Assembly: GCA_030622125.1 (NCBI GenBank) | Contig: JAUXGM010000007.1 | Coordinates: 1 to 29,639 of the forward strand | DNA length: 29,639 bases | Reading direction: 5' to 3' | Origin: a bacterium | GTDB taxonomy: Bacteria > AUK180 | Shown here: positions 538 through 12,981 of the stretch, one piece after another | Layout of the letters: every line of letters starts with the position of its first letter | How positions within the stretch are numbered: position 1 is the first letter of the stretch | Notes under the pieces: model-generated | Told to the model about the DNA's origin: nothing | The model's input: the letters and a program-made list of their open reading frames with translations, nothing else | Databases searched by the model: none | Made by a program: the position numbers and the translations under genes

Positions 538-1089
538 ATGAAGAGAAATTCGATATATGCGATTGCTTGGTGCATATTTATTATCGTACTTATTTTTCAT
601 CGTGAAATTGGTTTTGTATCCGGTTTTCTTCTTTTGATCATTATCAGTTTTTTATTTGAAAAAGATAAACTATGGGTATGGATACCCGCAATTATTATTT
701 CATGGATATGGGTATACATTGCTCGGGATATTTATTCCGGATACAATACATTCAATCTTTCAATAATGAATATTTCTCTCTTTCCGGTAATTATATGGCC
801 AACCGGACTTGTTTTCGGATACTATTTTTTATTTCCCAAAGTTAGAGGAAGAAATTGGATGATCAAATGGGTAAAGATGTTTATTATATATTCTTTTGCT
901 CTCATTATGTTTGAATCAATCGGATATAATTTATTTGGAATTTGTCTTGATTACGGCAAATCGAATATGTATCACGGATGGCCTGTATTAAATTGTTTTC
1001 ATAGTCCACAGTGGATGCAGTTTGGATATTTTTTGAATGGTCTGGTCTTTTACGGAGTTGCATCGTTTTTCAGTGAAAGAAAACAATAG
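538..1089 (+). CDS. Unknown integral membrane protein
   Basis: This 183-residue protein has about six hydrophobic segments, near residues 6-20, 24-40, 46-62, 78-98, 112-130 and 160-178. I do not recognise the family. The most distinctive stretch is residues 126-163, rich in Gly, Cys and aromatic residues (GICLDYGKSNMYHGWPV, then two further Cys/His/Pro-containing turns). A conserved-looking acidic residue, E126, lies in the fifth segment. It starts 23 nt after the antitoxin-like gene behind GGAGAG and probably shares its transcript. There is no homology to a toxin that I can see. Lycopene-cyclase-like or carotenoid-type membrane proteins are a weak alternative suggested only by the topology. 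Confidence 0.7.
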   Translation: MKRNSIYAIAWCIFIIVLIFHREIGFVSGFLLLIIISFLFEKDKLWVWIPAIIISWIWVYIARDIYSGYNTFNLSIMNISLFPVIIWPTGLVFGYYFLFPKVRGRNWMIKWVKMFIIYSFALIMFESIGYNLFGICLDYGKSNMYHGWPVLNCFHSPQWMQFGYFLNGLVFYGVASFFSERKQ

Positions 1090-1114
1090 AATTTATTTAA
1101 CCACAAACATTTTA

Positions 1115-1143
1115 TTGCTTTTTTTTTAAAAATATGCTAAATT
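1115..1143 (+). promoter_or_regulatory. Sigma-70-type promoter of nadK
   Basis: TTGCTT at 1115-1120 and TAAATT at 1138-1143 are 17 nt apart, with a T/A-rich spacer. The pair lies in the 80-nt gap before nadK, whose ribosome binding site AAGGAAGG is just upstream of the ATG at 1170. Confidence 0.45.
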
Positions 1144-1169
1144 AAATCATAAACAAGGAAGGTTTTAAA

Positions 1170-2000
1170 ATGATCGGAATATTTATCAATCCAAAAAAAG
1201 TTGATTACAAGACAAAGTTAGAAGAACTTTTTAAAAAGATAGAGAAGAACAATATCGAATTTTCTCTCAACAATGAAGTAAGGCAATTTTTTTCCAAAAG
1301 TTATCATTATGAGGATAAAAATCATTTAGTTAAAAATAAGGAACTTATTATAATTGTTGGCGGAGATGGAACATTTTTGAAACTGCTTCATGAAACCGGA
1401 ATGATAGAGGGTAAATATATTTTAGTTAATATCGGTTATATTGGTTTTTTATCATCTTTTACCTATAAGGAATTTTATAAAAACTTTGACGGGATTATTA
1501 GCAATAAAAATAAGTATATTGAACTGTCGATCTTATCTATAAAAAGTGAAAAAAATAATTACTTCGCTATAAATGATATTGTATTTGAAAACATGGGACC
1601 GACAAAACTTCTGAATTTTAATCTATATGTTGATAATGAGTTTTATCATAATCTCCGTGCGAGCGGACTGATATTAAGTACCACAACGGGTTCTTCCGCT
1701 ATTTCATATTCAACCGGCGGTCCAATAGTTGAGATTGGTCTTCCGTTGATCATTTACAGGTCCATAAGCCCGCAATTTAATTGTGATCCATCTGTTATCT
1801 TTAAAGGTAATCATACATTTAAGGTGGAAAATAGCAATTCTTTCCCAATTATATACACTATTGACGGTGCGGAAACAATCGAAATGAAACCAAACGAATC
1901 GGTAGAAGCAACACTTTTCAAAGAAAAGAAATGTCACCTTGTTCTTTACAAAAGCAAAAAGATCAGCACAATACTTAAAGAAAAGTTGTTTAAAAAATAG
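1170..2000 (+). CDS. nadK: NAD kinase
   Basis: This 276-residue cytoplasmic enzyme phosphorylates NAD+ to NADP+ with ATP or polyphosphate. The diagnostic GGDGT motif is at residues 64-68 within IIIVGGDGTFLKLL. The family's second block appears as NIGYIGFLSSF near 87-97, and the glycine/threonine-rich ligand loop as LILSTTTGSSAISYSTGGPI at about 167-186. In the canonical loop the segment reads DGLIVSTPTGS; here the Asp before Gly is Ser, a minor divergence. NDIVF at 135-139 is the usual substrate-binding turn. Length is normal for the bacterial family. It appears monocistronic: a promoter precedes it, and the next gene has its own. Confidence 0.93.
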   Translation: MIGIFINPKKVDYKTKLEELFKKIEKNNIEFSLNNEVRQFFSKSYHYEDKNHLVKNKELIIIVGGDGTFLKLLHETGMIEGKYILVNIGYIGFLSSFTYKEFYKNFDGIISNKNKYIELSILSIKSEKNNYFAINDIVFENMGPTKLLNFNLYVDNEFYHNLRASGLILSTTTGSSAISYSTGGPIVEIGLPLIIYRSISPQFNCDPSVIFKGNHTFKVENSNSFPIIYTIDGAETIEMKPNESVEATLFKEKKCHLVLYKSKKISTILKEKLFKK

Positions 2001-2018
2001 GGACGGAGGTTGCAAAAG

Positions 2019-2100
2019 TTGCATTATTGTGGAATAAATACCCAAAAATCTTGCATTTTTAGGGAATAGAAATAAAAAATATTTGCATTTTTATGGAATA
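2019..2100. repeat. Three 18-nt direct repeats at exact 32-nt period
   Basis: The units are TTGCATTATTGTGGAATA (2019-2036), TTGCATTTTTAGGGAATA (2051-2068) and TTGCATTTTTATGGAATA (2083-2100). The 14-nt spacers differ in sequence but not in length, so the units recur every 32 nt, about three turns of B-DNA. The third unit contains the -35 box and most of the spacer of the promoter for the downstream ATPase gene. A regulator stacking on one face of the helix would fit this geometry. There is no CRISPR character, because units and spacers are too short and no cas gene is nearby. Confidence 0.75.
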
Positions 2101-2111
2101 TATGGTACAAT
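2083..2111 (+). promoter_or_regulatory. Sigma-70-type promoter of the DUF4143 ATPase gene
   Basis: TTGCAT at 2083-2088 and TACAAT at 2106-2111 are separated by 17 nt. The -35 box is the start of the third 18-nt repeat. A short palindrome, ACAAT-GA-ATTGT at 2107-2118, overlaps the -10 box and could add an operator half. The ATG at 2145 follows about 27 nt after the expected transcription start, with AGGAG near 2133. Confidence 0.6.
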
Positions 2112-2144
2112 GAATTGTGTTAAGACACTTATAGGAGCATTAAG

Positions 2145-3485
2145 ATGCAGTTTTTACCGGAAAAAACAAGATTGATAGAAATTTTAAGTAAGTGGAATCT
2201 CTGGAATGATAATCAATATGAACTCGGAGTAATAAGACCTGATTATATTAATAAAATGAGTGCTTTTTTAAAAGCAGGAAAGATATTGACCATAACAGGT
2301 GTTAGAAGGAGTGGAAAATCAACTATTATGAAGCAATATGCAAGCAAATTGGTAAATGAAGGAATTCCTCAAAACAATATTCTCTTTGTGAATTTTGAAG
2401 AAGCGGAATTTGACAATCCTAATCTAATCCTTTTATTAAAAATATATGAGGCATACAAAGAAATATTGAAACCCACAGATAAACCGTACATTTTTCTTGA
2501 TGAGATTCAAAATGTTCCCAGATGGGAAAAATTTGTTCGTTCAATAAATGAAAGAAAAGAAGCTCATATAATAATTTCCGGCTCAAATGCAAAAATGCTA
2601 TCTCAGGAATTTGCTACTATTTTAACGGGGAGACAATTGGTTTTAAGTGTTTTTCCGTTATCATTTAATGAATTTCTTTTGTTTAATGATATTCCAAAAA
2701 TTGATGATAAAATTATTGCTTTAAATTCGGAAAAGATTAGAGAATTATTCAGGTCGTATATTAATTATGGCGGTTTTCCCGAGGTTACAATTTCTAATGA
2801 AGATGACATAAAGATACGACTTCTTAATACCTATCTTGATGATATTATCCAAAGAGATATTGTTGCAAGGCATAAAATACGAAAAATTCAAGAATTGCAT
2901 TCCCTTGTAAAATATTATATAAATAATTTTTCCAATCAAATTACCTATAACAGTATTCGCAAATTTATTGACCTTGAAATAAAAACAATAAAGGAGTATT
3001 CACATTATTTTGTCGAAACAAATCTAATCTTTTTTATTAAACGGTTTTCATATAGTTTAAAAACTCAAGAAAAAAATTCCAGGAAGCTCTATCTAATAGA
3101 TACGGGATTATCTCTTGCCAATAAAATAAAAACATCAAAAAATGTAGGAAGAATCATAGAAAATCTGGTTGCAATAAAATTAAAGTTTGAAGAATTTAAA
3201 AACCCTGGTAATAATACTTACTACTGGAAGGATAATTATAATCGGAAGGAAGTTGATTTTATAGTGCAAAATGGGAATGAAATATGTGAAGTAATTCAAG
3301 TATGCTGGGATATTAGTGATGAAAAAACTCGAAAACGTGAAATATCCGCTATGTTATCGGCTATGGAAGAATTTCAATTAAAAGAAGGATTGATCATTAC
3401 CGAAGATTTAGAATATACCGAGAGTATAAATGGATATATAATTTATTATAAACCTATTTGGAAATGGTTACTGTCAAGCAGTTGA
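2145..3485 (+). CDS. AAA ATPase with C-terminal DUF4143 nuclease-like domain
   Basis: This 446-residue protein has an N-terminal P-loop with Walker A GVRRSGKST (52-60), Walker B IFLDE (116-120) and a sensor-like ISGSNAK (144-150). This is the AAA_14 type of the archaeal-ATPase-like STAND relatives. The C-terminal third carries the DUF4143 signature KEVDFIVQNGNEICEV at about 368-383, where D371 and E382 fit a PD-(D/E)XK-like fold. The family is widespread in anaerobes, often in many paralogous copies, and its cellular role is not settled; defence or toxin-like functions have been proposed. It is monocistronic, with an unusual repeat-bearing promoter, and recN has its own promoter immediately downstream. 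Family assignment is firm, function is not. Confidence 0.9.
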   Translation: MQFLPEKTRLIEILSKWNLWNDNQYELGVIRPDYINKMSAFLKAGKILTITGVRRSGKSTIMKQYASKLVNEGIPQNNILFVNFEEAEFDNPNLILLLKIYEAYKEILKPTDKPYIFLDEIQNVPRWEKFVRSINERKEAHIIISGSNAKMLSQEFATILTGRQLVLSVFPLSFNEFLLFNDIPKIDDKIIALNSEKIRELFRSYINYGGFPEVTISNEDDIKIRLLNTYLDDIIQRDIVARHKIRKIQELHSLVKYYINNFSNQITYNSIRKFIDLEIKTIKEYSHYFVETNLIFFIKRFSYSLKTQEKNSRKLYLIDTGLSLANKIKTSKNVGRIIENLVAIKLKFEEFKNPGNNTYYWKDNYNRKEVDFIVQNGNEICEVIQVCWDISDEKTRKREISAMLSAMEEFQLKEGLIITEDLEYTESINGYIIYYKPIWKWLLSSS

Positions 3486-3541: not shown

Positions 3542-5173
3542 ATGTTAAACTATCTAAGGGTAAAAAATTTCGTTTTGATCAAAGATCTTAAACTTGATCT
3601 TTCGGATAACTTAAATGTTTTTACAGGTGAAACAGGTGTAGGAAAGACGATTCTTGTAAACGCCGTAAAGGTCTTGCTCGGTGATAAGATCATAACTAAA
3701 TTGGTATCGGGGAATGATCAAGCTGATATTGAAGGTGTTTTCTCACTCAGAGATGAAAATGCAAAAAAACCTCATCAGTATGGATTTGAAGGAGATGAAA
3801 TTATTTTAAGACGCATCATCAGTAAAAAGAAAAGAGGGAGATATTTTGTAAATGATACCATTGTAACTCAAAAGACCTATCAAGATATAGCAAAGAATCT
3901 TATTGATATTCATAGTCAAAATGAAAATCAAACGCTTCTCGATGAAAATATTCAAAAGGAGCTCTATGATAACTACATTAAGGTTGATAAAAGTGATTAT
4001 TACGATACTTATAAAAAATATAATGAACTAAAATTCGAGATTGCATCAATGGAGGAAGAGAAGGGAAAAATAAGTAAGGAATATGATTATATTAAATTCC
4101 AATATGATGAGATTAAACGAATAGATCCGATGCCCGGAGAAGATGAGGAATATCGGGAAAAATTAAGAATATTAAAAGGAATAGAAGAATATAAATCTAC
4201 GGTATTCGGACTAAAATCGATCCTCTACGAAGATGAGAACAGTATCCTTACTTTATTGGAACGGGGTTCGAAATTGCTTTCGGAGATCTCTAAATTCTCT
4301 CATGAGATAGGTAAATCGGCTGCTGATATTGAGGATATGAAGGAGAAGATCATAACACTTTACCGTTCACTTGATATGGCTGAGAATATAGAAAATGAAG
4401 ATATAACAATTGATGATATTCAAGAGAGGTTATCGCAGATAGAAAAACTCTATAAATATGGTAAAACGATAGAGGAGATCATCAATTATGAAAAGGAACT
4501 TGAGAAGAAACTTTCCTTTTTCGACGGTTCAAAATTTGATATTAAAGGTAAGAAAGAAGAGTTAAAAAATATCAAGGACGATCTTACAAAAAAAGCATCT
4601 CAAATCCATAACCACAGGGTAAAATGGAAGGTAAAATTTCAAGAAAAGGTAAATAAAGAACTTGAAAATGTTGCGATGAAGGGATCAAAATTTTATGTTG
4701 ATATAGATGAGGATAAAGAGACCTTCAAGTCCGATGGTTTTGATAATGTCCGATTTTTAATTGATACGACGGGAAAGGGAAAATTCCCATTAAATATGAT
4801 TGCATCGGGTGGTGAACTTTCAAGGATAATGCTTGTTTTAAAGGAAATATTTATTGATGATGATTCCGTTGAAACATTGATATTTGACGAAATAGATATG
4901 GGTATCGGCGGGCAAACCGCATTAAGTGTCGGTGCCAAGATAGAAAAAATATCTAAAAAAAAGCAGGTTATTACCATTACCCATCTTCATCAGATTGCAA
5001 AATTTGCCGATTACCATTTCAGTGTTGAGAAAAAGAAAAATAAGGCGGAAACCTATACAACTATTAACAAATTGGATCAAAAGCAAAAAATAGAAGAGAT
5101 AGCAAGAATGCTCGGCGGAACAAAAATGTCCGAAAATACAGTTAAACTTGCCAAGGATCTTTTAAAAAAATGA
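3542..5173 (+). CDS. recN: DNA repair ATPase RecN
   Basis: This 543-residue SMC-like protein acts in recombinational repair of double-strand breaks. Walker A is GETGVGKT (29-36), preceded by the family's N-terminal LRVKNFVLI. A long central region (about 150-390), rich in Glu and Lys, forms the predicted coiled coil. The ABC signature SGGELSR lies at 422-428, Walker B LIFDEIDMGIGG is near 446-457, and the H-loop THLHQIA begins at 480. The canonical form is THLPQVA, so Pro is replaced by His here. RecN contains a HSQNE(N) block, seen as DIHSQNENQTLL near 122-133. It opens the large operon and overlaps the next gene by 4 nt (ATGA). Confidence 0.93.
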   Translation: MLNYLRVKNFVLIKDLKLDLSDNLNVFTGETGVGKTILVNAVKVLLGDKIITKLVSGNDQADIEGVFSLRDENAKKPHQYGFEGDEIILRRIISKKKRGRYFVNDTIVTQKTYQDIAKNLIDIHSQNENQTLLDENIQKELYDNYIKVDKSDYYDTYKKYNELKFEIASMEEEKGKISKEYDYIKFQYDEIKRIDPMPGEDEEYREKLRILKGIEEYKSTVFGLKSILYEDENSILTLLERGSKLLSEISKFSHEIGKSAADIEDMKEKIITLYRSLDMAENIENEDITIDDIQERLSQIEKLYKYGKTIEEIINYEKELEKKLSFFDGSKFDIKGKKEELKNIKDDLTKKASQIHNHRVKWKVKFQEKVNKELENVAMKGSKFYVDIDEDKETFKSDGFDNVRFLIDTTGKGKFPLNMIASGGELSRIMLVLKEIFIDDDSVETLIFDEIDMGIGGQTALSVGAKIEKISKKKQVITITHLHQIAKFADYHFSVEKKKNKAETYTTINKLDQKQKIEEIARMLGGTKMSENTVKLAKDLLKK

Positions 5174-6582
5174 AACTGATCGTTGATATAAATCTTGGGA
5201 AACTTACAAAATGGCTTCGTATACTCGGATATGATACGAAAATATATAAAGATAAAGAATTTTTAGATTATCTTGATAAGGACGAATTTATCATCTGTAC
5301 AAAAAATTATTCTGTATATGAGTCGTATAAAGACCGTAAAAATATTATCTATATTCCTTATGATGATTATGAGGTGCAACTTTTTTTTCTTGCAAAAAAA
5401 GGCATAATTACGAAAACAGAAAATTTTTTCAAAAGATGCCCTCTTTGCAACAGTGAACTCATTGATATAGAAAAGGAAAAGATCAAAGACCTTGTACCGC
5501 CATTTATTTATAAGGCACATAATCAATTCAAAAAATGCCCTAACTGTAATAAAATATATTGGCAGGCAACACATACATATCAAATCAAAAAGAAGCTGAA
5601 TAAAATATTTGAGGATAAAAAGCCGTTTAATATCGGAATAACAGCAGGAGATATGAATGGTATCGGACCGCAGATAATTTTGAAGCTCTATATAAAAAGG
5701 AAGGATCTTTTTAGACAAAATAGGATCTTTATAATAGGATCAAGGGAGGTCTTTGAGTTTTACATAAAATATTATAAAAAATTTTCAAAGAAATTAAGTA
5801 AAATAGAATTGAACATTGTAAAAAACAGTGATAAATATGATCCGCAAAAATTGAATCTTTTTGATGTCGGACTTAGAAATAAGGAAAAATTTGCTCCTGG
5901 GAAGCCGACGGAACATTCAGGTGAATTGACCTTTCGCATACTCGAGAGATCGGTTAAATTATTCTATGCAAATGAGATAGATCTCATTGTTAATACACCG
6001 AATTCAAAAGAGGCGTTAAACCTTGCCGGTCATAAACTAACAGGTGCCACGGAGTTCTATTCAAAGGGAAAGAAAGCCCTTATGACCTTCTATTCCGATG
6101 AAATGATCATTGCACTTTTAACAAGGCATATTTCTATAAGCGAGGTCTCAAAAGCAATTACCGTTGATGAAATATTATGGGCACTGAATATATTAAGATC
6201 CTACGGAAAAATAGGTGTTATGGGATTGAATCCGCATGCATCGGAAGGGGGATTGATCGGTGATGAAGAAAATGAGATCATAAATCCTGCAATTGAAAAA
6301 GCAAAAGATGCGGGAATTGATGCCGTCGGTCCGCTTGTTTCGGATACATTTTTTATGGGAGAAAAATGCAATGCCTATTTATCAATGTATCATGACCAGC
6401 TCTTACCGCTTTTTAAAAGGCTCTACCTTAAAAGATCATTTCAAGCATCACTTGGACTTGATATTAAGAGGGTATCGGTATCTCATGGAACGGCATGGGA
6501 TAAGGTAAAAGATTTTAGTGCAAGCTGCGAATCTCTGGAATTTATTCTTGATAAAGGTATCAAACTTGTTAAATGGGAATAA
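5170..6582 (+). CDS. Mut7-C RNase/PIN-like domain fused to a PdxA-family dehydrogenase
   Basis: This 470-residue protein has two domains in one uninterrupted frame. Residues 1-148 are Mut7-C (DUF82): VDINLGKLTKWLRILGYD (5-22) with acidic D6, then a zinc-ribbon with CPLC at 90-93 and CPNC at 123-126 and the trailing IYWQATH. This domain resembles PIN-type RNases. Residues 152-470 are PdxA-like: GITAGDMNGIGPQI (156-169), metal-ligand histidines H320, H355 (LNPHASEG) and H408 (MYHDQ), and a C-terminal VSHGTAWD. PdxA oxidises 4-hydroxythreonine-4-phosphate in pyridoxal phosphate synthesis. Two substitutions stand out: the usual GHTEF is GATEF (A293), and VDHGTA is VSHGTA. The substrate may therefore differ, as in PdxA2 relatives. 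No start codon lies at the domain border. It overlaps rsmA by 10 nt. Confidence 0.85.
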   Translation: MKLIVDINLGKLTKWLRILGYDTKIYKDKEFLDYLDKDEFIICTKNYSVYESYKDRKNIIYIPYDDYEVQLFFLAKKGIITKTENFFKRCPLCNSELIDIEKEKIKDLVPPFIYKAHNQFKKCPNCNKIYWQATHTYQIKKKLNKIFEDKKPFNIGITAGDMNGIGPQIILKLYIKRKDLFRQNRIFIIGSREVFEFYIKYYKKFSKKLSKIELNIVKNSDKYDPQKLNLFDVGLRNKEKFAPGKPTEHSGELTFRILERSVKLFYANEIDLIVNTPNSKEALNLAGHKLTGATEFYSKGKKALMTFYSDEMIIALLTRHISISEVSKAITVDEILWALNILRSYGKIGVMGLNPHASEGGLIGDEENEIINPAIEKAKDAGIDAVGPLVSDTFFMGEKCNAYLSMYHDQLLPLFKRLYLKRSFQASLGLDIKRVSVSHGTAWDKVKDFSASCESLEFILDKGIKLVKWE

Positions 6583-7349
6583 AAAGAGGTCTCGGGCAAA
6601 AATTTATTCTTGATAAAGAATATTTAAGATCACTTGTTGCTCTGTCGGAAGTTACCGATAAAAATATTTTAGAGGTCGGTAGCGGTAAGGGAACATTAAC
6701 CGAGATATTACTTGATAAAGGAAAGAAAATAATATCGGTTGAGATTGATAACAGACTTTGTGAAGGGCTTAAAAATAAATTCTCGGATGAATTAAAACTT
6801 CTCATTGTACCTGCTGATTTTTTGAAGCTGGATATTAGTATGTTAAAAGGTGAAAATTGGGTCTTTTTTGCGAATATCCCTTACTATATAACAACACCGA
6901 TAATTGAAAAATTGATAGAAAATAATAAATATTTTGAAAATTATTACTTAATGGTACAGTATGAGGTTGCCCGCCGTCTATTTGCATCTGAGGGGAATAA
7001 GGATTACGGTTCGCTTTCCATCTTTTTTTCAACATACTTTACAGGAAGAATATTAAAGAAGGTGCCGAGAACGGTTTTTAGCCCTATTCCAAAGGTTGAT
7101 TCTGCATTTATTACCTTTAAAAATGATATAAAAGCAGATGTAGATGAGGATTTTTTTAGAATGATCCGATTCATATTTTCCCAGCGGAGAAAAATGATTG
7201 TAAATAGTTTGACCAATTATTTTAAAAATCTTGATAAAAATGATATAATAAAAATATTTAAAAAGGTAAAAATAGATGAGAACCAAAGACCTGAACAAAT
7301 CCCTTATAAAAAGTTTCTTGATCTTTACAATGTTATTAACAGCAATTAA
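6573..7349 (+). CDS. rsmA: 16S rRNA dimethyladenosine transferase
   Basis: This 258-residue SAM-dependent enzyme (KsgA/RsmA) dimethylates two adjacent adenines in the 3' terminal helix of 16S rRNA during 30S maturation. The N-terminal KRGLGQKFILD (4-14) matches the family's opening. The SAM loop is EVGSGKGTLT (34-43), the acidic SAM ligand follows in VEID (56-59), and the catalytic motif is NIPYYI (101-106). The length is standard. Translation starts inside the end of the preceding fusion gene, so the two are probably translationally coupled. A neighbouring pdxA-rsmA pair is known in Proteobacteria, which supports reading the upstream C-terminal domain as a true PdxA relative. Confidence 0.95.
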   Translation: MGIKRGLGQKFILDKEYLRSLVALSEVTDKNILEVGSGKGTLTEILLDKGKKIISVEIDNRLCEGLKNKFSDELKLLIVPADFLKLDISMLKGENWVFFANIPYYITTPIIEKLIENNKYFENYYLMVQYEVARRLFASEGNKDYGSLSIFFSTYFTGRILKKVPRTVFSPIPKVDSAFITFKNDIKADVDEDFFRMIRFIFSQRRKMIVNSLTNYFKNLDKNDIIKIFKKVKIDENQRPEQIPYKKFLDLYNVINSN

Positions 7350-10320: not shown

Positions 10321-11113
10321 TATCCTGCAAAATTATAAGGAATTCATTGATAAGAAATTGGCAAATTACATAGAAGAACGCCTTAACGGTTCTCTTTATT
10401 CTGCTTTAAAATATGCAGTAATAGTTGGCGGCAAACGCCTAAGACCGATAATAATGCTTGGACTATCCAATGAATTCGGATTAAATGAACAGATGATAAT
10501 TTCCGGACTTATCGGAATAGAATTTATCCATAATTACTCATTGATACAGGATGATCTTCCCTCTTTTGACGATGACGATCATAGAAGAGGAAAAAAGACC
10601 GTCCACAAAAAATTTAAAGAGGATACCGCAATACTTGCAAGTGATGTACTTTTAACGGAGGGAATGTATCTTTTTTCGCGGTTACCTGAAAATGAAAAAA
10701 TTATGAACCTCGTAAATAATTCTATCGGTATAAAAGGACTTTTAAGCGGTCAATATCTGGATATGGAAGAAGATATAAAAGATTTTGAACAACTGATAAA
10801 TATATATAAGTTAAAAACCTCTTCTCTTTTTAAGGTATCATTTTTACTACCTGTTATATTAGCAAAAAAAGTTGAATATGAAGAAAAAATACAAGACATT
10901 GCACAAGATTTCGGTATTGCTTTTCAGATATATAATGATCTGAGATCAACAAAAAAAGAGAATAAAGGAATATTGAAACTACATACCCATAAAAAGGCAA
11001 ATGAAATATTCGGCGAATATCTTGATAAAGCAAGAAATATCTTTGGTATAATTAAAAAAAATGATACAAGAAAATTATTTGATGGGATATTTTCTCTATT
11101 GGAGGAAAAATGA
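10310..11113 (+). CDS. ispA: Polyprenyl diphosphate synthase, IspA-like
   Basis: This 267-residue trans-isoprenyl diphosphate synthase condenses isopentenyl diphosphate with an allylic diphosphate. GGKRLRP (40-46) binds diphosphate. The first Asp-rich motif is DDLPSFDDDDHRRG (81-94), with the two-residue insertion typical of bacterial farnesyl or geranylgeranyl synthases. The second Asp-rich motif is unusual: the expected FQIxDDxLD reads FQIYNDLRS (205-213), so two of three Asp residues are lost. The protein is also shorter than the usual 290-300 residues. Activity may be altered, or it may be a subunit or a specialised synthase. Two adjacent ATGs (10310 and 10313) are both usable. It overlaps dxs by 4 nt. 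The position after xseB and before dxs supports the name. Confidence 0.85.
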   Translation: MMSNILQNYKEFIDKKLANYIEERLNGSLYSALKYAVIVGGKRLRPIIMLGLSNEFGLNEQMIISGLIGIEFIHNYSLIQDDLPSFDDDDHRRGKKTVHKKFKEDTAILASDVLLTEGMYLFSRLPENEKIMNLVNNSIGIKGLLSGQYLDMEEDIKDFEQLINIYKLKTSSLFKVSFLLPVILAKKVEYEEKIQDIAQDFGIAFQIYNDLRSTKKENKGILKLHTHKKANEIFGEYLDKARNIFGIIKKNDTRKLFDGIFSLLEEK

Positions 11114-12981
11114 TACTTGATAGATTAAACCATCCTTCCGATGTAAACAAATTGAATGAACAGGAGTTGCAAAGATTGTGTGGAGAACTTAGATGGACGA
11201 TAATCAAGACAACATCAAAAAATGGTGGTCATCTTGCTTCCAATCTCGGTAGTGTTGAACTTACCGTTGCACTTATTAGAGCATTGGACCTTGAAAATGA
11301 TGATATAATATGGGATGTTGGACATCAAGCCTATGCCTTTAAATTATTAACAGGAAGATATAAGGATTTTCATACATTAAGAAAATTTGGCGGGATAAGC
11401 GGATATCTTAAAAGAAGTGAATCGCGATACGATGTATTTGGTGCCGGACATTCTTCTACATCTCTGTCTGCTGCCTATGGGATCAAGGTCGGAAAGGAGA
11501 AAAAAGGAGACAACGGCAATGTCGTTGCCGTGATCGGTGACGGTGCACTTACAAGTGGTATTGCACTTGAAGCGTTGAACAACATCGGAAATTCTGCCGA
11601 AGATATACTTATTATACTGAATACCAATGAGATGTCAATATCAAAAAACACGGGAGCAATTGCAAAATACCTTTCAAAGTTAATTACAAACTCAACTTAC
11701 AATAAGTTGGTAGGCAAAGTTGTTGGGATACTCACCCCATACAAGAATCGCGGTGAAACGATGGTCAATGCTTTTTTCAGATTTATTGAGACCTTGAAAT
11801 TGATGCTCGTTCCGGGAAAGCTCTTTGAGAGTTTCAATATAAGATATTTCGGACCATTGGATGGACATAATGTCGAACTTTTAGAAAAAACGATAAGAAA
11901 AATAAATAAACTTCACGGACCGAAGATATTAAATGTGGTTACTAAAAAAGGATTCGGTTATAAACCTGCTTATGAAAATCCGATGAAATATCATGGTGTT
12001 ACACCATTTAATATAGAAACGGGACTTTCCTTGAAGAAGAAAAAGATAAGCTGTTCCAGGGTCTTTGGTAATATCATAGGAAAAATTGTTGAAAGGGATA
12101 AAGATGTTATCGGAATTACCGCTGCAATGGGTTACGGTACAGGATTGGATGAATTCGGAAAAAAATTTCCCGATAATTTCTTTGATGTGGGGATTGAAGA
12201 GGAACATGCAGTAACCTTTGCCGCGGGAATGGCTGCGAAATCATTAAAACCATTTGTGGCGATCTACTCGACTTTTTTGCAAAGAGCTTATGATATGATC
12301 ATCCACGATGTTGCCCTTCAGAATTTACCTGTTAGATTTTTCCTTGATAGAGCAGGTATCGTCGGGGATGACGGAGAAACGCATCACGGCGTATTTGATC
12401 TTTCTTATCTCAATCTTATTCCTAATATGAAGATAATTGCCCCATCCGATATGGAGTCGCTTGAGCGTTCTATTATAACTGCTTATGGATATAATGCCGG
12501 ACCGATTGCAGTTAGATATCCAAGGGGTGCATTAGAAGGGGAGATCAAGGACTATGAGGAATTATCTCCGCTTGATATCGGAAAAGGTAGGGCGGTCATC
12601 TCATCAGAGAAAGATGAGATTCTCATGATCGGTATCGGGAGAATGGTTTCCAATTGTAAAAAATGGGCATCGGAATTAAAGAAAAATGATGGCATAAGAG
12701 CATCGGTCTTCGATGCACTCTGGCTCAAGCCGATAGATGAAGATAGTATAATAAGATTAGCAAAAGGCAAAAAAGCAGTAGTTACAGTTGAGGACAATAC
12801 GGTGATCGGGGGATTCGGAGATGCGGTTATCAATGTCTTAAATAAAAATAAGATCAATATTCCCGTTATTAAGATCGGCTGGCAGGACACCTTTCCCGTT
12901 GCAGGAGAGATAGATCAATTATTTGAACATTATGGTATAGATTATGCTGCTATTTTAAAAAAGATCAAGGAGGTTATATGA
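11110..12981 (+). CDS. dxs: 1-deoxy-D-xylulose-5-phosphate synthase
   Basis: This 623-residue thiamine-diphosphate enzyme joins pyruvate and glyceraldehyde-3-phosphate to make DXP. DXP is the first intermediate of the MEP isoprenoid pathway and also a precursor of thiamine and pyridoxal. H41 lies in HLASNLG, and GDGALTSG (143-150) with N171 forms the ThDP/Mg site. The usual NDN there reads NTN. YFGPLDGH (246-253) and EEEHAVTFAAGMA (363-375), with E364 as the cofactor-activating Glu, are diagnostic. The transketolase C-terminal domain follows around 490-615. The length is typical. It lies directly after the prenyl synthase, so the two isoprenoid steps are co-expressed. Its last codons are part of an exact 18-nt duplication with the exbB start. 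Confidence 0.95.
   Translation: MILDRLNHPSDVNKLNEQELQRLCGELRWTIIKTTSKNGGHLASNLGSVELTVALIRALDLENDDIIWDVGHQAYAFKLLTGRYKDFHTLRKFGGISGYLKRSESRYDVFGAGHSSTSLSAAYGIKVGKEKKGDNGNVVAVIGDGALTSGIALEALNNIGNSAEDILIILNTNEMSISKNTGAIAKYLSKLITNSTYNKLVGKVVGILTPYKNRGETMVNAFFRFIETLKLMLVPGKLFESFNIRYFGPLDGHNVELLEKTIRKINKLHGPKILNVVTKKGFGYKPAYENPMKYHGVTPFNIETGLSLKKKKISCSRVFGNIIGKIVERDKDVIGITAAMGYGTGLDEFGKKFPDNFFDVGIEEEHAVTFAAGMAAKSLKPFVAIYSTFLQRAYDMIIHDVALQNLPVRFFLDRAGIVGDDGETHHGVFDLSYLNLIPNMKIIAPSDMESLERSIITAYGYNAGPIAVRYPRGALEGEIKDYEELSPLDIGKGRAVISSEKDEILMIGIGRMVSNCKKWASELKKNDGIRASVFDALWLKPIDEDSIIRLAKGKKAVVTVEDNTVIGGFGDAVINVLNKNKINIPVIKIGWQDTFPVAGEIDQLFEHYGIDYAAILKKIKEVI

Follow-up and report, generated by a model that had tools for sequence, protein, structure and literature searches.

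Background

The function of Mut7-C in prokaryotes is unknown (PMC11347159). An earlier study held that the domain has catalytic residues arranged as in PIN nucleases (PMC1779556), and the structure solved for the worm Mut7-C has little likeness to PIN domains (PMC11347159). RNA binding has been shown or predicted for the Ubl-Mut7-C proteins and for animal MUT-7/EXD3 (PMC1779556, PMC11347159, PMC7052010): the animal MUT7-C contributes to RNA binding (PMC11347159) and the mycobacterial Rv0579 co-purifies with RNA (PMC7052010), and neither PMC11347159 nor PMC7052010 shows RNase activity for a prokaryotic Mut7-C. Here we describe a lineage in which Mut7-C is fused to PdxA, a combination for which no description was found in the open literature searched; this agrees with the earlier note on this DNA, which had presented the fusion as not commonly described.

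A single reading frame encodes Mut7-C and PdxA

The window (the whole 29,639-nucleotide stretch of DNA analysed) contains at 5170-6582 on the + strand one open reading frame of 470 amino acids, which joins a Mut7-C domain to PdxA as the earlier note had claimed; the PdxA is full length. Both Pfam matches are far above their cut-offs, with Mut7-C (PF01927) matching residues 1-142 (E 4.7e-33, 114.8 bits versus a gathering score of 23.3) and PdxA (PF04166) matching residues 184-456 (E 2.8e-64, 217.7 bits versus a gathering score of 27). The PdxA part extends over residues ~154-468, as the TIGR00557 match starts at residue 155, and by fold the model matches E. coli PdxA from residue 150 to 470. 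Based on Pfam, column conservation and an AlphaFold2 model, the Mut7-C (DUF82) domain was assigned to positions 5170-5616 (+), and consists of an N-terminal lobe (residues ~1-82), a Cys4 zinc ribbon with C90/C93/C123/C126 (residues ~86-135) and a C-terminal helix (residues 134-147) running almost straight into PdxA. The PdxA domain (residues ~150-470) was assigned to 5617-6582 (+), including the stop codon, from Pfam, the alignment with E. coli PdxA and the fold match. Structure prediction of both parts, one of the checks suggested previously, gave a confident model (mean pLDDT 89, pTM 0.73) with a PdxA fold in the PdxA half and pLDDT values of ~83-97 across most of Mut7-C; the first PdxA strand (154-158) follows almost directly after the Mut7-C helix, and in two stretches of the active site, 357-362 and 440-442, pLDDT is lower than 50.

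From the zinc ribbon of Mut7-C to the start of PdxA, the window reading frame contains no in-frame ATG, GTG or TTG, and the first in-frame ATG is codon 162, within PdxA, which confirms that there is no internal start at the junction. The junctions of three other fused members (G001, G002 and G004) also lack any of these in-frame codons, and G003 has a single in-frame ATG there which is not conserved; an internal start yielding a separate PdxA was rejected, as no start codon is conserved at the junction.

Conservation and origin of the fusion

The phylum of the window genome is represented by seven genomes in our collection, five from the family of the window and two (G005 and G006) from a sister family. 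A domain-architecture search across these related genomes, also suggested previously, found the fusion in all five window-family genomes. Four carry it intact in one frame, with the relatives being 53-58% identical to the window protein, while the G002 fusion is in two pieces, broken exactly at two contig ends, and hence the joined frame is not the base error that the earlier note had allowed for. Among the best 80 of 519 confirmed relatives in named genomes, three were fused, being those of G001, G003 and G004. No PdxA was found near other Mut7-C loci, and no Mut7-C near other PdxA loci, within the locus DNA examined. A scan for fusions with the window protein alone as query found none, and rare fusions could be missed in the scan of the named genomes, because this relied on only two peptide patterns. 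The fusion of these two known domains is thus real and lineage-wide, and was not found elsewhere among the loci and literature searched.

In both sister-family genomes the Mut7-C and pdxA genes are separate and overlap by 8 nt (ATGCATAG and ATGAATAA), and rsmA follows the pair in G005, where the contig continues. The gene order is pdxA-rsmA in E. coli, Mut7-C/pdxA/rsmA in the sister family and recN/fusion/rsmA in the window family, with pdxA-rsmA common to all three. In the window, a recN-like gene (3542-5173, +; weak Pfam SMC_N/AAA_23 matches) is located directly upstream and overlaps the fusion start by 4 nt, an order also seen in G001, G002 and G003, and the fusion end is overlapped by rsmA (ksgA), encoding the rRNA dimethyltransferase (6573-7349, +; Pfam RrnaAD E 1.6e-53, BLASTP to E. 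coli RsmA). The same gene cluster includes dxs (11110-12981, +; Pfam DXP_synthase_N E 1.2e-105), and the Dxs product DXP is the co-substrate of PdxJ. The PdxA parts of both families group together in a phylogenetic tree (support 92/90). The Mut7-C tree, from a short alignment, did not at first group the two families, but when constrained to do so it was 25.7 log-likelihood units better and was not rejected (p-AU 0.81). Fusion of the neighbouring Mut7-C and pdxA genes would be the simplest origin, because the sister family has them as separate genes with the 8 nt overlap; a small insertion or deletion within such an overlap could have merged the two frames.

Two further features were noted in this neighbourhood. 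The window has an AAA_14/DUF4143 ATPase gene (2145-3485) between nadK and recN, which looks like an insertion in its lineage because recN adjoins nadK (within 3 nt) in G001 and G003. In G005, the region upstream of the Mut7-C/pdxA pair (698-3374 of locus L037) contains three similar tandem genes for secreted or lipoprotein-like proteins, which by eye resemble tetratricopeptide-repeat proteins.

The dN/dS ratio between G001 and G004, a single close pair analysed with a simple counting method, was 0.16 in the N-terminal lobe of Mut7-C, 0 in its zinc ribbon and 0.08 in PdxA. By this estimate both halves are under purifying selection, and the low values in each indicate that both have been retained.

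We favour, with moderate confidence, a reading of these sequences in which fused overlapping genes have given rise to a diverged but working B6 dehydrogenase with a non-catalytic Mut7-C module. Mut7-C and pdxA, as overlapping neighbours upstream of rsmA, would have fused in a single family of this small, uncultured phylum. The PdxA half most likely continues to feed PdxJ in the DXP-dependent route to vitamin B6, although its phosphate site and its cofactor loop have diverged. Mut7-C would most likely have lost any nuclease activity and been retained under selection as a zinc-stabilised module, which may bind RNA or another partner, or may brace the enzyme.

The PdxA half and vitamin B6 synthesis

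All three metal-binding histidines are kept in the PdxA half (H320, H356 and H408, equivalent to E. coli 166, 211 and 266), as claimed previously, except that the second is H356 and not H355. Also kept are D247, D267, T137, K274 and R292 (E. coli numbering). The substrate site, which from the annotation of E. coli PdxA we take to consist of H136, T137, K274, N283 and R292, has therefore retained T137, K274 and R292, with the alignment to E. coli PdxA placing A293 at the position of H136 and Q425 at that of N283. Positions conserved at 93-100% elsewhere have been changed from Thr to N275, His to A293, Gly to S358 and Ala to G463, the nucleotide-loop motif is replaced by HGTAWDKVKDFSA, and the conserved DIAGKG-type loop is gone in all fused members. 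In the related dehydrogenase superfamily the loop after HGTA holds the adenosine of NAD, and so cofactor binding may be changed in the fused PdxA.

The two motif changes reported in the earlier note, GHTEF to GATEF and VDHGTA to VSHGTA, are both present and family-wide, with VNHGTA in one member, but the second is not specific to the fusion: the unfused sister PdxA already has this Asp-to-Ser change, as well as N283Q. H136A, T275N, G358S and the altered loop after HGTA are not found in the unfused sister. Judged by this comparison, the Asp-to-Ser change and N283Q are older than the fusion, and H136A is not. The TIGR00557 equivalog cut-off (290.35 bits) is reached by the unfused sister PdxA (310.7) and by none of the fused members (232.4 for the window, 215-232 for the others), and the fold of the PdxA half matches solved PdxA structures with Z-scores of 33.4 and 32.7.

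The fused PdxA is the only one in the window genome, where a second canonical pdxA was looked for as suggested previously. The search for pdxJ elsewhere was positive: PdxJ is present in six of the seven genomes of the phylum, including all five of the window family, where it retains almost every residue that is invariant elsewhere. SerC is likewise present in all five family genomes, above cut-off, and no PdxS was found in the window genome. With PdxJ and SerC present, PdxS absent and no other PdxA, the fused protein is the only PdxA candidate for the DXP-dependent route. No PdxH (TIGR00558) was found in the seven genomes of the phylum, and the final step to PLP is not explained by the genes found there. 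Beside the changes in the fused PdxA, the window-family PdxJ proteins (L149-L153) share the changes A19Q, I53T, A191I, Y197L and N213S at well-conserved positions.

These data also bear on the strongest alternative, in which the PdxA half has a new substrate or has lost its dehydrogenase activity, and is no longer a B6 enzyme. This would fit with the scores below the equivalog cut-off, with H136A, N283Q, T275N, G358S and the loss of the DIAGKG-type loop in all fused members, and with a PdxJ which is also altered near conserved sites (e.g. A191I, Y197L); however, the genome has PdxJ and SerC without another PdxA or a PdxS, the metal ligands are retained along with T137, K274 and R292, and purifying selection is strong, and we consider this alternative rather unlikely. 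As stand-ins for the non-phosphorylated diol-dehydrogenase class we used PdxA-like proteins encoded beside aromatic-ring dioxygenases, and these lack H136/T137, N283 and R292. Both T137 and R292 are present in the fusion, which disfavours a substrate of the diol-dehydrogenase type, and the fused protein more closely resembles an enzyme acting on a phosphorylated compound because the dioxygenase-neighbour proteins have lost these residues altogether. The new substrate proposed in the earlier note is hence conceivable but not favoured, with PdxJ and SerC kept, no PdxST, and most phosphate-site residues in place.

The Mut7-C half

Each genome has one Mut7-C. The zinc-ribbon cysteines C90, C93, C123 and C126 are kept together with Y130, W131 and H135 in all five fused members, R17, D22 and R89 are also kept, and G133 is changed to Ala. 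The fused Mut7-C does not have the full PIN-like residue set of D6, R40 and the Asp of LTRD (position 46), positions which were chosen from conservation in the present alignment. R40 is missing in 5/5 fused members and kept in 91/93 unfused Mut7-C proteins, a set collected with a pattern over residues 15-22 which biases those columns, with residues 6, 40 and 46 and the zinc ribbon lying outside them. At position 46 the five fused members carry N, N, N, C or S, the two sister proteins carry E or D, and 66/92 unfused Mut7-C carry Asp; loss of this Asp alone is not diagnostic because the other 26/92 also lack it. The D6 and two CxxC pairs reported in the earlier note are present in the window, but D6 is kept in only 3/5 fused members, being Gly in G001 and G004. 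No solved structure matching the Mut7-C half by sequence was found.

The loss in every fused member of residues that are near-universal in unfused proteins makes a working RNase unlikely: the fused Mut7-C is probably not a nuclease, any cutting activity having presumably been lost. Here our results depart from the earlier note, which had described the domain as RNase-like and had missed that R40 and the LTRD Asp are gone in all fused members. An RNA-binding or structural role appears more likely, given the residue losses, the work on the worm domain and the retention of RNA by Rv0579. It is improbable that an active RNase and an active B6 dehydrogenase have been joined by gene overlap alone, without a functional link. 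The overlapping gene pair of the sister family, purifying selection on both halves and D6 in three of the five members are all consistent with such a protein, but R40 and D46 are missing from all five and D6 from two, and no RNase activity is shown for prokaryotic Mut7-C in PMC11347159 and PMC7052010.

It is quite improbable that a Mut7-C without nuclease activity holds the B6 dehydrogenase on RNA or places it under RNA control, which would link the synthesis of B6 to RNA or to the maturation of ribosomes via the neighbouring rsmA. The corresponding RNA-bound enzyme or sensor, in which Mut7-C would tether PdxA to RNA (such as the mRNA of its own operon, or the part of the rRNA on which RsmA acts) and couple B6 synthesis to RNA state, we rate as very improbable: the rsmA neighbourhood is conserved, the zinc ribbon, R17 and R89 are kept and related Mut7-C proteins bind RNA (PMC11347159, PMC7052010), but pdxA-rsmA is an old order that is also found in E. 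coli, without Mut7-C. Finally, the possibility that two genes were joined by an artefact of sequencing or assembly, or by a frame error, was rejected with a negligible residual probability, as the same frame is found in four independent genomes, the fifth is split at contig ends, and dN/dS is low.

A diverged B6 dehydrogenase carrying a non-catalytic Mut7-C thus remains our preferred reading. The lineage as a whole ties Mut7-C to a defined metabolic enzyme, and fused and unfused forms can be compared directly because the sister family keeps overlapping separate genes. If the Mut7-C part does bind RNA, this would give the domain a metabolic context, and if it does not, it would be a clear-cut example of how a nuclease-like domain has lost conserved residues and been retained within an enzyme. 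The fusion protein is confidently modelled and amenable to simple tests.

Comparison with known systems

Compared with PdxA (PF04166/TIGR00557), the PdxA half has the fold of the E. coli enzyme (1ps6, Z 32.7, 2.3 Å over 307 residues), the metal-binding His triad, D247, D267, T137, K274, R292 and the gene order with rsmA, but differs in the N-terminal Mut7-C, H136A, N283Q, the changed cofactor loop and a score below the equivalog cut-off. It also shares the superfamily fold of terephthalate 1,2-cis-dihydrodiol dehydrogenase (4aty, 8zhy; Z 26-30), although the Z-score of the PdxA half to terephthalate diol dehydrogenase (29.6) is lower than that to true PdxA (~33). The Mut7-C half resembles stand-alone prokaryotic Mut7-C (PF01927) in its Pfam match, Cys4 zinc ribbon, W131, H135, R17, D22 and R89, whereas R40 and D46 are absent from all fused members, D6 is lost in two, G133 is Ala and the partner is a metabolic enzyme. 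Joining of Mut7-C to another domain is shared with the Ubl-Mut7-C proteins (TM_0779, Rv0579) and animal MUT-7/EXD3, but there the partners are ubiquitin-like or exonuclease domains, whereas here the partner is a B6 dehydrogenase.
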